Part shown: positions 20,164 to 24,006 of the stretch, one piece after another
Position numbering within the stretch: the stretch's first letter is position 1
Layout of the letters: each line of letters opens with the position of its first letter
Assembly (NCBI GenBank): GCA_035307765.1
Contig: DATGHU010000010.1
Coordinates: forward strand, 1 to 61,508
Direction: 5' to 3'
DNA length: 61,508 nt
Source: a bacterium
GTDB taxonomy: Bacteria > Sysuimicrobiota > Sysuimicrobiia > Sysuimicrobiales > Segetimicrobiaceae
The notes under the pieces: generated by a model
Told to the model about the DNA's origin: nothing
Database searches by the model: none
What the model saw: only the letters and a program-made list of their open reading frames with translations
Made by a program: the position numbers and the translations under genes

Positions 20164-20192
20164 TTGCGGGTGTGGAGGGCGCGGCGTACAAT
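20164..20192 (+). promoter_or_regulatory. promoter for the HAD hydrolase gene, apparently leaderless
   Basis: TTGCGG at 20164-20169, a 17-base spacer and TACAAT at 20187-20192. Only 6 bases separate the -10 box from the GTG at 20199, so transcription would start at or within a base or two of the start codon. Confidence 0.6.
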
Positions 20193-20198
20193 GCCGCT

Positions 20199-20861
20199 GT
20201 GGTGACGCCCGCGCGGGTCGCGCTGATCTTCGATATGGACAACACGTTGATCGGCTCGCGGATCGACTTCCCGGCAATCCGACGATCGCTGATCGCGATG
20301 CTGCGGACGACGGGCGCGGTGGACGAATCCGACGAGGTCCTGATGCGCCGCGCGTTGGCGCAGCTCGTGGCGATAGGGGCCGCGCACGATCGCCATCACG
20401 GCACCGCGCTGGCCCGACGGATGTGGGAGATCATCGAAGCGCACGAAGCCGAGGGGCTGCGTGACGCCCTGCCGCTGGATGGCGCCGCCGAGGTCCTTGG
20501 GACCCTGCGCGCGCGCGGGTTCCGGATCGCGGTCCTCACGAACAACGGCCGGACCGGCGCCGTTGACGCCCTGCACGCCTCCGGCCTCGGCGGGCTGGCC
20601 GAAACCGTGATCGCCCGCGACGACGCCGGGGCGCTGAAACCTGCAGGGGACGGCGTCTGGGAAGCGGTACGCCGCCTCGGCTCCGTGGAGCGGTCCTATG
20701 TGATCGGGGATTCGTGGATCGACGGGGCCGCGGCCGCCGAGGCGGGCGCCCGGTTCATCGCCTATCGGCGCAGTGCGGAAGAACTCGGCGATCGGGGAAT
20801 CCACCCCTGGTGCTGCGTCGCCCACCTCGGGGAACTGCTCGCGCTCGACTTCACCACGTAG
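20199..20861 (+). CDS. HAD-superfamily phosphatase
   Basis: A 220-aa haloacid dehalogenase-type hydrolase, similar to phosphoglycolate phosphatases and other subfamily IA enzymes. Motif I is IFDMDNTL (nucleophile D12 and acid/base D14), followed by a helical cap; motif II is in VLTNNGR, motif III includes the lysine of GALKPAG, and motif IV is GDSWIDG. Two in-frame GTG codons, at 20199 and 20202, fit the fold; a GTG at 20172 would add nine residues but overlaps the promoter. It is divergent from the lipoprotein gene. Substrate unknown; phosphoglycolate or a nucleotide is usual for the group. Confidence 0.82.
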   Translation: MVTPARVALIFDMDNTLIGSRIDFPAIRRSLIAMLRTTGAVDESDEVLMRRALAQLVAIGAAHDRHHGTALARRMWEIIEAHEAEGLRDALPLDGAAEVLGTLRARGFRIAVLTNNGRTGAVDALHASGLGGLAETVIARDDAGALKPAGDGVWEAVRRLGSVERSYVIGDSWIDGAAAAEAGARFIAYRRSAEELGDRGIHPWCCVAHLGELLALDFTT

Positions 20862-20924: not shown

Positions 20925-21728
20925 CTACCAAAAGTGTTTGAACTTCTTCGCGAACCGGCGCTCCATCGACTCCCTGTGCAGGTGGTAGACCGGACACTCC
21001 CGGGTGATGCAGACCTGCAGCGCGGTGTTGCAGTAGGCCTCCGGTACCTGCCAGCACTCGCGGTTCGTGAAGTACGTGAAGCAGACCCCTTTCCGCTCGG
21101 TGGCCTGCTCCGCGCGCACCCCATCGACCCCCAGGCCGGAGGAGGTCACCCGGTGGCGGGTCCGCCGGCGGCCGCGCTCCGGTCGCGGTCGCTTCAGCGC
21201 CGCCCCTGCGACGCTCGGAGGGGGGGGCGGCACCAACCGCGCGGCGGGGGGCGCCGAATCGGGCGCGGGGCGTGCGGGTGGTTCCACGGGCGCGGGCCTG
21301 AACGGCTGAGCGGGAGCGATCCGCGTCGGAATTGGAGGTCCGGAGACCGCCGCAGCAGCCGATGATGCGGCCGGTTCTACGCGAACGGGCGCCGGCCGCG
21401 TTCCGCCCTGATGGCCCGTCGGAGGCGCGGAGGAAGGCGGCGGCCCAGGTCGTTCGGGGACCGCGGCCGGGGCGAGTCCCCCCGCCGACGCCATCGCGGT
21501 TTCGACGATGCCGTCTCTCCCTACCGGCGCGTTTGGAGGGGCAGACGTCGAGGGCTGGATCGTGACGTCGTGGGCGCCGCCGCGGGCCTTGGCCGGCACG
21601 TCCTCGGCCTCGACCGGGGCGGGGGGGCGGCGGGGGATCTCCCGCCCCTCCAGATCGGCGAGTTCGCGCGAGGTGTCTTCGATGAACGATCTAAGTCCGC
21701 GCCGCAGCGCTTCCTGCTTTTTGTTCAA
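20925..21728 (-). CDS. Pro-rich, Cys-rich protein encoded with ParA; possible ParA partner
   Basis: I do not recognise a named family. The 267-aa protein starts at a TTG (21728) inside the end of parA, with a strong AAGGAGG (21738-21744) nine bases upstream. It has three parts: a basic-acidic N-terminal helix (MNKKQEALRRGLRSFIEDT), about 160 residues very rich in Pro and Ala and probably disordered, and a compact C-terminal segment (213-267) with C216, C225, C233, C240, C245, H249 and H251, ending in a basic aromatic tail. The cysteines could bind zinc or an iron-sulfur cluster. The overlap with parA and the absence of parB suggest that it is the ATPase's partner, but that is inference. Confidence 0.75.
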   Translation of the reverse strand: MNKKQEALRRGLRSFIEDTSRELADLEGREIPRRPPAPVEAEDVPAKARGGAHDVTIQPSTSAPPNAPVGRDGIVETAMASAGGLAPAAVPERPGPPPSSAPPTGHQGGTRPAPVRVEPAASSAAAAVSGPPIPTRIAPAQPFRPAPVEPPARPAPDSAPPAARLVPPPPPSVAGAALKRPRPERGRRRTRHRVTSSGLGVDGVRAEQATERKGVCFTYFTNRECWQVPEAYCNTALQVCITRECPVYHLHRESMERRFAKKFKHFW

Positions 21729-22563
21729 GCGCCATGACCTCCTTGGCGAGGTTCATGTACTCTTGCGCCCCGCGTGAGGTGCGCAGGTGCACAAACACCG
21801 GGACGCCCGCCATGCTGGACTCGACGAGCTTGATGTTGAAGTGGATGGCGCTGGCGAAGACCTTGTCGCCGAAGTACTCGCGGATGCCGTGGATGATCTC
21901 CTTGCTGATGGCCGTCCGGGCATCGTACATCGTCGGCACGACCCCGGCGATCTCAATCTGGTGGCCGACTTCCTCCCGTACGACCTTGAGGGTGCGGAGC
22001 AGTTGGCGCATCCCGAGCAGCGCGTAATAGTGCGTCTGGATCGGGATGATCACCTCCTCGCACGCCACGAGGGCGTTGAGGGTGAGCAGCCCCAACGACG
22101 GGGGGGTGTCGATGATGATGTACTCATACCGGTCTCGAATCGGGATGATCTTTTTCCGCAGCGACTTCTCGCGTCCGATGCGGGCCGACAGCTCCAATTC
22201 CGCGGCGGCCAGGTCGATCGAAGACGGGGCGACATCGAGGTTCGGCACGTTGGAGGGAACGACCACGCCCGCCAGGTCGACCGCCGAGCCGCCGTCGATG
22301 GGATCATCGACAAGCACATGATAGATCGTCCTGGTCAGCTGGCCGGGATCGACCCCGAGGCTCACCGTGGCGTTGGCTTGCGGGTCGAGGTCGATCAGGA
22401 GAACCCGCCGCTTGCTGACGGCAAGGCAGGCGGCGAGGTTCACCGCCGTGGTCGTCTTGCCGCACCCGCCCTTTTGGTTGACCAGGGCGATCAGGCGCGC
22501 CGTGGGCTTCGTTTCTTCGTCCACAGCTTCCCTCCCCACGACCAGGCCGCTGCGCGTATCCAT
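21691..22563 (-). CDS. parA: ParA/Soj-type ATPase
   Basis: A 290-aa member of the ParA/MinD family, which moves DNA, protein complexes or organelles by ATP-dependent binding to nucleoid or membrane. The deviant Walker A is KGGCGKTT (31-38) with the signature lysine K31; Walker A' is LLIDLDPQANAT and Walker B is IIIDTPPSLGLLTLNAL. It has a 20-residue N-terminal extension before the first strand. No ParB or parS site is visible next to it; instead the downstream gene overlaps its last 38 bases. The C-terminus lacks an amphipathic MinD-type membrane helix as far as I can see. Chromosome segregation is possible, but a cargo-positioning role fits the context equally well. Confidence 0.88.
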   Translation of the reverse strand: MDTRSGLVVGREAVDEETKPTARLIALVNQKGGCGKTTTAVNLAACLAVSKRRVLLIDLDPQANATVSLGVDPGQLTRTIYHVLVDDPIDGGSAVDLAGVVVPSNVPNLDVAPSSIDLAAAELELSARIGREKSLRKKIIPIRDRYEYIIIDTPPSLGLLTLNALVACEEVIIPIQTHYYALLGMRQLLRTLKVVREEVGHQIEIAGVVPTMYDARTAISKEIIHGIREYFGDKVFASAIHFNIKLVESSMAGVPVFVHLRTSRGAQEYMNLAKEVMALEQKAGSAAART

Positions 22564-22650: not shown

Positions 22651-24006
22651 TCAGCGGGTCGAGGTCGATCCGTCCCCGACCCCGCCCGGTGCCGGCGGGG
22701 CGCCCTCGGACGTGAGGCGCCGCGCCAGCGCCAGCGCCTGCTCGCGCGTTTGGATCTCGCCGTCGAGTCGGGCGTTTTCGACGATGTGGAGCACCCGCCC
22801 CACGCCGGGCCCCGCGGGAAGCCCGAGGGCCAGGACGTCCGTCCCCGTGATCAGCGGCGGGGGAACCGGAGGCTCCCCCGCCAGGCGCTCCACGAACGCC
22901 CGAACCCACGCGTACGTCGAGAGGTCCCCGTGGCTCGCGGCGCAGTCGGCTCGGTGGAGCTCCAACAACTCCGGAAAGGCCTCGTCCGCCACGAGGCGCC
23001 GGAGCCGTGAGGGCCGCATCTGCATGACGTCTTTGAAGACCATGTGCCTTCCGACCAACGCGACGATCCGATCGGCGGCACGGCGGGGGAACCGGAGACG
23101 CTCCAGGGCGACGCGGGCGAGCGCGGCCCCGACCTCGTCGTGCCGGGAGAACCGGATCCGGTCGGCGTGCACCAGCGTGGAAGGCTTTCCGACATCGTGC
23201 AGCAGGGTGGCCATCGCCAACGTCGCCGATGGGGCCCGCAGCTGAGCCATGGCCAGCAGGGTGTGCGTGAACACATCCCCCTCGGGGTGGAACGCCGCCG
23301 GCTGCGGCACCCCGACCTCGTTGGCCACCTCGGGGAGGATGACGTCGAGCAGGCCGGTCTCGTGCAGCAGGCCGAGCGCCCGGCGGGAATCGGGCCCGGT
23401 CACGATCCGGATCAGCTCATCGCGAATCCGCTCGGGGCTCACGTCGGCGATCCCGCGCGCCAACCGCCGAAGCGCCGCCCCGGTCTCGGGGGCGATCTCA
23501 AAACCCAGTTCGACCGCCAGCCGCACGGCGCGGAGCAGGCGCAGCCGGTCCTCGGTGAATCGGGTGACCGGGTCACCGATTGTCCGGATCTGTCGGGCGG
23601 CCAGATCCCGGCGCCCGCCGACGTAATCGAGCACCTCGTCCGCTTCAGGGTCGTAGAGCAGGCCGTTGACCGTGAAGTCGCGCCGCGCCACGTCTTCCCG
23701 GGCGGTGGCATACCGGACCGAAGCGGGATGGCGGCCGTCGAGGTAGGGCCCTTCGGCGCGAAATGTCGCCACCTCGTACTCGCCATCGTCCTCGCGGACC
23801 CGGATCACGCCGAACGCCTCGCCGACGTCAACGGTGCGGTCGAAGAGCGCGCGCACCTGTTCGGGAGGGGCAGCGGTGGCGATGTCGTAGTCGGCCGGGT
23901 CGCGGCCCAGCAGGCGGTCGCGCACGCATCCGCCGGCGAGGTAGGTGTCAAACCCGGCGGCCTTCAGGCGCCGGACGATATCACGCGCGGTGTGGAAGCT
24001 GCCCAT
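22651..24006 (-). CDS. cca: CCA tRNA nucleotidyltransferase/poly(A) polymerase family with HD domain
   Basis: A class II nucleotidyltransferase of 451 aa that adds or repairs the CCA end of tRNAs. The catalytic motif is GGCVRDRLLG then DYDIAT with the DxD carboxylates D39 and D41; RRDFTVNGLLYDP is the conserved flexible loop/neck entrance, and the TEDRLRLLRAVR segment binds nucleotide. An HD phosphohydrolase-like domain follows (LLHDVGKPS, RHDEVG). The HD domain is found in many bacterial Cca enzymes. Which activity (CCA, A-adding or poly(A)) it has cannot be told from sequence alone. It stands between the sigma factor gene (115-base gap) and parA (87-base gap). Confidence 0.88.
   Translation of the reverse strand: MGSFHTARDIVRRLKAAGFDTYLAGGCVRDRLLGRDPADYDIATAAPPEQVRALFDRTVDVGEAFGVIRVREDDGEYEVATFRAEGPYLDGRHPASVRYATAREDVARRDFTVNGLLYDPEADEVLDYVGGRRDLAARQIRTIGDPVTRFTEDRLRLLRAVRLAVELGFEIAPETGAALRRLARGIADVSPERIRDELIRIVTGPDSRRALGLLHETGLLDVILPEVANEVGVPQPAAFHPEGDVFTHTLLAMAQLRAPSATLAMATLLHDVGKPSTLVHADRIRFSRHDEVGAALARVALERLRFPRRAADRIVALVGRHMVFKDVMQMRPSRLRRLVADEAFPELLELHRADCAASHGDLSTYAWVRAFVERLAGEPPVPPPLITGTDVLALGLPAGPGVGRVLHIVENARLDGEIQTREQALALARRLTSEGAPPAPGGVGDGSTSTR

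Follow-up and report, generated by a model that had tools for sequence, protein, structure and literature searches.

A ParA-type ATPase gene and the gene that overlaps its 3' end form a pair that is a fixed trait of the uncultured bacterial phylum CSP1-3, which has been given the name Sysuimicrobiota (PMC11604079). The best explanation of the pair, to which we assign a probability of roughly 0.6, is a dedicated Sysuimicrobiota positioning system in which a nucleoid-associated ParA and an ATPase-activating adaptor move a cargo found throughout the phylum. We favor this reading because the two genes are linked wherever the partner's C-terminal module was found, near-universal and joined by a conserved overlap, because a separate ParABS system with its own parS exists and the ATPase falls in a distinct ParA clade, and because the partner shares a three-part architecture with published ParA/MinD adaptors. 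Against it, no cargo gene lies nearby, a ParB-like motif in the partner is only suggestive, and the partner's cysteine-rich module might bind DNA or sense redox state instead. ParA/MinD ATPases organize many cell components, and many of them are "orphans", as their partners are too diverse to recognize. For one entire phylum the partner can now be named, and sequence conservation singles out the two short parts of it that matter, an N-terminal helix and a cysteine-rich module.

The pair was analyzed in a window of 61,508 nucleotides, the whole stretch of DNA under study, which is one contig from a genome of 3.8 Mb (G000:C10). The ATPase gene (positions 21691 to 22563, minus strand) encodes 290 amino acids. 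The partner gene (20925 to 21728, minus strand) encodes 267 amino acids from a TTG start at 21728-21726 that lies inside parA, producing an overlap of 38 bp between the parA 3' end and the partner 5' end (21691 to 21728, minus strand). A Shine-Dalgarno element, AAGGAGG, can be read from the sequence 9 nt ahead of the TTG (21738 to 21744, minus strand; the start region on that strand is ctcgccAAGGAGGtcatggcgcTTG). The first-pass annotation had placed the start here, and the coordinates, strand, overlap and ribosome-binding site all agree with that placement.

Orthologs also back this start. In 38 of 41 relatives it stands at a fixed distance from the parA stop codon, as TTG in 15 cases, ATG in 17 and GTG in 6, and the same N-terminal protein sequence follows each of the 38 starts, whichever codon is used. 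Since the codon varies while the ensuing protein stays the same, we regard the start as fixed. The Shine-Dalgarno-like sequence ahead of it is retained in relatives, and the 38-bp overlap is exact in 38 of the 41 genomes. Among the 41 loci, parA extends further across the homologous partner start in two (L052 and L056), and the genes are separated in one alone (L042). That the partner is made together with the ATPase, as had been proposed, is supported.

The surrounding genes are housekeeping genes. A CCA-adding/poly(A) polymerase-type nucleotidyltransferase gene lies upstream (22651 to 24006, minus strand; Pfam PolyA_pol, E=5e-37) and is syntenic in most loci. Downstream lies a convergent HAD-family hydrolase gene (20172 to 20861, plus strand; Pfam Hydrolase, E=2e-18) that is syntenic in many. 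The spacers on either side of the pair are short, about 90 bp upstream of parA and about 60 bp past the end of the partner gene. The conserved order of this chromosomal neighborhood, with cca on one side and HAD/asnS/rimP-nusA-infB on the other, rules out a mobile or plasmid partition module. In nine loci (L045, L047 and L054 among them), a conserved protein of about 130-170 amino acids (gene cluster 13), which has no significant Pfam match, is encoded immediately upstream of parA on the same strand.

The ATPase has an AAA_31 domain (Pfam, E=9e-59) and a deviant Walker A motif, KGGCGKTT, with the signature lysine, features that place it among the ParA (Walker A cytoskeletal) ATPases. K14, G15, G16, C17, K19 and T20 are invariant across 21 sequences. 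No phylum member of this ParA group falls below 67% identity to the one in the window, and the best match from about 250 outside genomes is 51% identical. In a phylogenetic tree, 40 phylum ParAs cluster apart from outside ParAs and from the phylum's own ParABS ParA, a grouping that is descriptive, with low support for the 40-member node (0.34 after re-rooting). The phylum's ParABS ParAs group together (10 of 10, support 0.98).

Among close ParA relatives outside the phylum, a ParB-type gene lies downstream in most of the 20 top-ranking ones that were examined. Downstream of a ParA from another lineage that is about 50% identical (L141; G260:C20:97500-102000) is a gene for a TPR-like protein that starts VNSEDNVLGKGIEAIF. 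This protein, too, looks like a ParA partner: its N-terminal motif is ParB-like, and no ParB domain is evident in it. Two ParAs that neighbor the phylum clade in a quick tree (L145, G178:C77; L152, G176:C120) are each followed by a second P-loop-like protein with an N-terminal LGRGL or MGRGL motif (e.g., VKRLGRGLADVSHVFLSG).

We examined the distribution of the partner by searching 43 genomes of the phylum, mostly metagenome-assembled and drawn from 22 genera, with its 64 C-terminal residues. The cysteine module was found in 41 of the 43 genomes, with all 22 genera represented. In each of these 41 genomes ParA lies immediately upstream of the partner, an adjacency that exceeds chance. The first-pass annotation had raised the question of whether the module always accompanies this ParA; it does so in every module-bearing genome, and the partner family is not one that occurs mostly without the ATPase. 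One of the two module-negative genomes (G006) contains ParA and the first part of the partner, which is cut by a contig end, and the other (G034), 72% complete, contains neither gene. Each module-bearing genome has one copy except G033, in which a second, gap-containing ParA-partner copy (C144, L133) has runs of N in the partner and may reflect either a genuine duplication or mixed strains in the assembly. A profile of the module returned nothing below E=0.003 from 343 genomes outside the phylum. The absence of the module outside the phylum rests on these 343 sampled genomes, covered by the profile search and one pattern-based scan of genome contigs.

The partner has no ParB match in Pfam or NCBIfam, parB was not found in the neighborhood of the pair, and parS was not found within the window with up to three mismatches allowed. 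A separate rsmG-parA-parB locus in the same genome holds the genome's only exact parS match. The view that this ParA lacks a ParB, put forward in the first-pass annotation, is borne out by these results, and the search for a second ParA-ParB locus that it proposed succeeded. With the only exact parS in the other locus and none in the window, a ParABS or parS-containing locus is ruled out. The pair might instead be a second DNA-segregation system, in which the partner is a ParG/ParB-like centromere binder whose cysteine module forms a zinc-type DNA-binding domain. Classic partition loci likewise set a ParA next to a partner whose N-terminus is basic, and the cysteine module contains conserved basic residues. 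However, the locus is chromosomal and syntenic, leaves little intergenic room on either side and, short chance matches aside, shows no iterated repeats, and the chromosome already has ParABS with parS. Modules related to that of the partner, moreover, occur as stand-alone proteins of 60-80 amino acids or as a C-terminal extension of an HD-GYP protein. We consider a second segregation system improbable.

The partner is built from three parts. The first is a basic helix at the N-terminus (MNKKQEALRRGLRSFIEDTSRELADLE; 21648 to 21728, minus strand), presumed to be the ParA-interacting peptide and delineated by a conserved motif and an AF2-predicted helix. The motif L-[RL]-[RH]-[GV]-[ILV]-R (in short, L-R-R-G-[ILV]-R) occurs in all 41 partners, and its first leucine and last arginine are invariant. 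For an ortholog of 130 amino acids, AF2 predicted one helix spanning residues 2-30, with pLDDT values of 77-84 across residues 1-20. The second part is a linker rich in proline and alanine (21102 to 21647, minus strand), assigned by composition and low AF2 pLDDT. It ranges from 37 to 279 amino acids over the phylum, is 40% Pro+Ala and contains no cysteine; residues 32-77 of the modeled ortholog, which belong to it, have pLDDT below 50. A charged N-terminal helix and a long disordered linker had been described previously, and our results agree with that description; the layout matches that of ParA/MinD ATPase-activating adaptors. A linker motif, [IVL][LV][RK]L[VI]R (e.g., PILRLVRE; L060, L061 and L062), recurs in 20 of the 41 partners within an otherwise variable linker, and a VRY[IL][RQ] variant is present in four others. 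The motif was not seen in the window's own protein.

Set against LGRGLxALI from the N-terminus of ParB, the partner's motif shows a weak likeness. Its median score lies near the 97th percentile of neighbor-protein controls, and ParBs score far higher. The motif is thus not established as a clear ParB-type motif, and its ParB-like appearance is only suggestive.

The third part is a 58-residue C-terminal module with five cysteines and a tryptophan at its end (20928 to 21101, minus strand), defined by invariant columns and a profile match. All five cysteines of the partner fall within these 58 residues and are among the 15 invariant columns of the module alignment. The last residue is tryptophan in all aligned partners but one, which has tyrosine. 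The first-pass annotation had counted five cysteines and two histidines here. The cysteines stand, but the last 55 residues hold three histidines (in YHLH and KHFW), none of which is conserved. Because of this lack of conservation, the five cysteines would be the ligands, if there are any. AF2 predicted an all-helical module of short helices with a mean pLDDT of 70, and Foldseek found no fold match to this prediction in the PDB. No curated Pfam or NCBIfam model matches the partner directly. A PDB sequence search returned a scorpion toxin only, which is a chance match, and a weak Pfam match to beta-defensin 136 is below the cut-off of that model and reflects a coincidence of cysteine patterns.

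Weak matches in two outside genomes (G188 and G325) led to possible relatives of the module. These matches are Cys-rich proteins of 70-72 amino acids downstream of HD-GYP-like sequence, and from them we found a family of Cys-rich proteins of 60-80 amino acids with the pattern CxAYx5CWE..CCKRx5RCxxCxxY (L161-L184; e.g., L161 and L162). Tested members have no Pfam or NCBIfam match. The family's Cys-rich sequence also occurs fused to an HD-GYP protein (L174) and as part of a MerR regulator (L175), and the MerR example weakly matches the NCBIfam two-CW domain NF045718. Aligning the partner's module with the small proteins by hhalign gave a probability of 95% over 38 gapless columns. The score of 37.2 compares with at most 23.0 in 400 controls (200 with all columns shuffled and 200 with the cysteine columns kept and the rest shuffled), none of which scored as high. 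Four cysteines, a CW pair, AY and [VI]Y are in register. One cysteine is shifted, giving C-x6-C-x4-C in the partner and C-x8-C-x2-C in the small proteins, and the partner's module differs further in having a helix and a linker ahead of it in the same protein. Judged from these alignments, it probably derives from a Cys-rich module that is widespread; its link to the two-CW domain is weak and runs through the MerR protein.

Such a module could bind DNA or sense redox state instead of docking on a cargo. One alternative is a metal- or redox-sensing regulator, in which the module senses an Fe-S cluster, zinc or oxidation and either switches ParA or reports elsewhere, moving no cargo. This model would account for five invariant cysteines that are all the cysteines of the partner, and for the presence of related modules on signaling proteins (HD-GYP and MerR) elsewhere. 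It fits poorly with the gene overlap and the activator-like helix, which point to direct ATPase control, and with a long, variable tether for which a mere sensor has no need. We regard a regulator of this kind as a doubtful explanation with a small chance of being correct.

In the positioning system that we favor, ParA would form ATP-dependent dimers that bind the nucleoid irrespective of DNA sequence, as expected from its family. The basic helix of the partner would contact the ParA dimer and cause ATP hydrolysis and release from DNA, as the partner's architecture and the activating peptides known from other adaptors suggest. The linker would act as a flexible tether, and the five-Cys module with its terminal tryptophan would fold around a metal, a cluster or a disulfide core and may dock on a cargo present in essentially all members of the phylum.

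We asked what this cargo could be. A cargo gene was not found in the neighborhood of the pair. The bacterial microcompartment (BMC) shell domain PF00936 is absent from 42 of the 43 phylum genomes, which makes a carboxysome-like cargo unlikely; the sole match is at G022:C10:58020-58235. An MCP domain exceeds its cut-off in nine of the 43 genomes only, making chemoreceptors an unlikely cargo. Because of these low counts, neither can be the phylum-wide cargo. No protein reaches the MinD cut-off (TIGR01968) in any of the 43 genomes. The cargo is narrowed to something present in every member, since the pair is near-universal, shell proteins and chemoreceptors are sparse, and bona fide MinD is absent.

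One candidate of this breadth is a type IV pilus or type II secretion-like machine. The ATPase domain of such machines, PF00437, is over its cut-off in 42 of the 43 genomes, often in several copies, and is thus nearly as universal as the pair. However, it is widespread in bacteria generally, pilus genes are unlinked to the pair, and one genome that is 89% complete (G013) has the pair and lacks a full PF00437 match. We consider this cargo very unlikely.

As no sequence reaches the MinD cut-off, a role in division like that of PomXZ is conceivable. In this cargo-specific version of the positioning model, the cargo is or recruits the division machinery, and the pair selects the division site in place of Min. 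Division-site selection is needed by every member, and PomX shares the partner's plan of a charged N-terminal peptide, an Ala/Pro-rich region and a C-terminal interaction domain. Against this, PomX ends in a polymer-forming coiled coil and not a Cys module, ftsZ and other division genes are unlinked to the pair, and absence of MinD is common by itself: many phyla lack MinD and yet have no PomZ. We view this role as unlikely. The broader proposal that a whole phylum uses a hitherto undescribed ParA positioning system with a metal- or redox-dependent cysteine dock, possibly replacing MinD in division-site placement, is speculative and rather unlikely.

We compared the pair to known systems that use ParA/MinD-family ATPases. 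As in ParA-ParB-parS systems, a ParA ATPase adjoins its partner, and the partner motif L-x-R-G-[LI] is loosely ParB-like. The partner lacks a ParB domain, there is no parS at this locus, and a complete ParABS is encoded elsewhere in the genome. The pair also differs from MinDE, as no phylum sequence qualifies as MinD.

The McdA-McdB system, which the first-pass annotation took as its model in preference to chromosome partition, combines a ParA-type ATPase with a non-ParB adaptor. McdB follows the adaptor plan of a positively charged N-terminal peptide and an interaction domain (PMC12204374; PMC10241942), and like the partner it has a basic N-terminal helix and a very variable length. Its C-terminal aromatic residue, a tryptophan, is a cargo determinant that is essential for carboxysome binding (PMC11321042), and the terminal tryptophan of the partner may be analogous. 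In contrast to McdB, the partner has a Cys module in place of the McdB C-terminal motifs, and the pair lies outside any BMC operon, is near-universal in its phylum and occurs in genomes that, with one exception, have no BMC shell genes. The non-ParB partner and the separate ParABS support the proposed distinction from chromosome partition, but the likeness to McdB is one of analogy.

PomX, which acts with PomZ to position the division site in Myxococcus, is as close an architectural analog of the partner as McdB. It is a non-ParB protein in which a positively charged N-terminal peptide is grafted onto an interaction domain, with an Ala/Pro-rich unstructured region between them (PMC7993993). 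The C-terminus of PomX is a polymer-forming coiled coil, whereas that of the partner is predicted, with modest confidence, to consist of short helices with no long coiled coil. The best reading of these comparisons is that the pair would work like McdAB and PomXZ while belonging to neither family.
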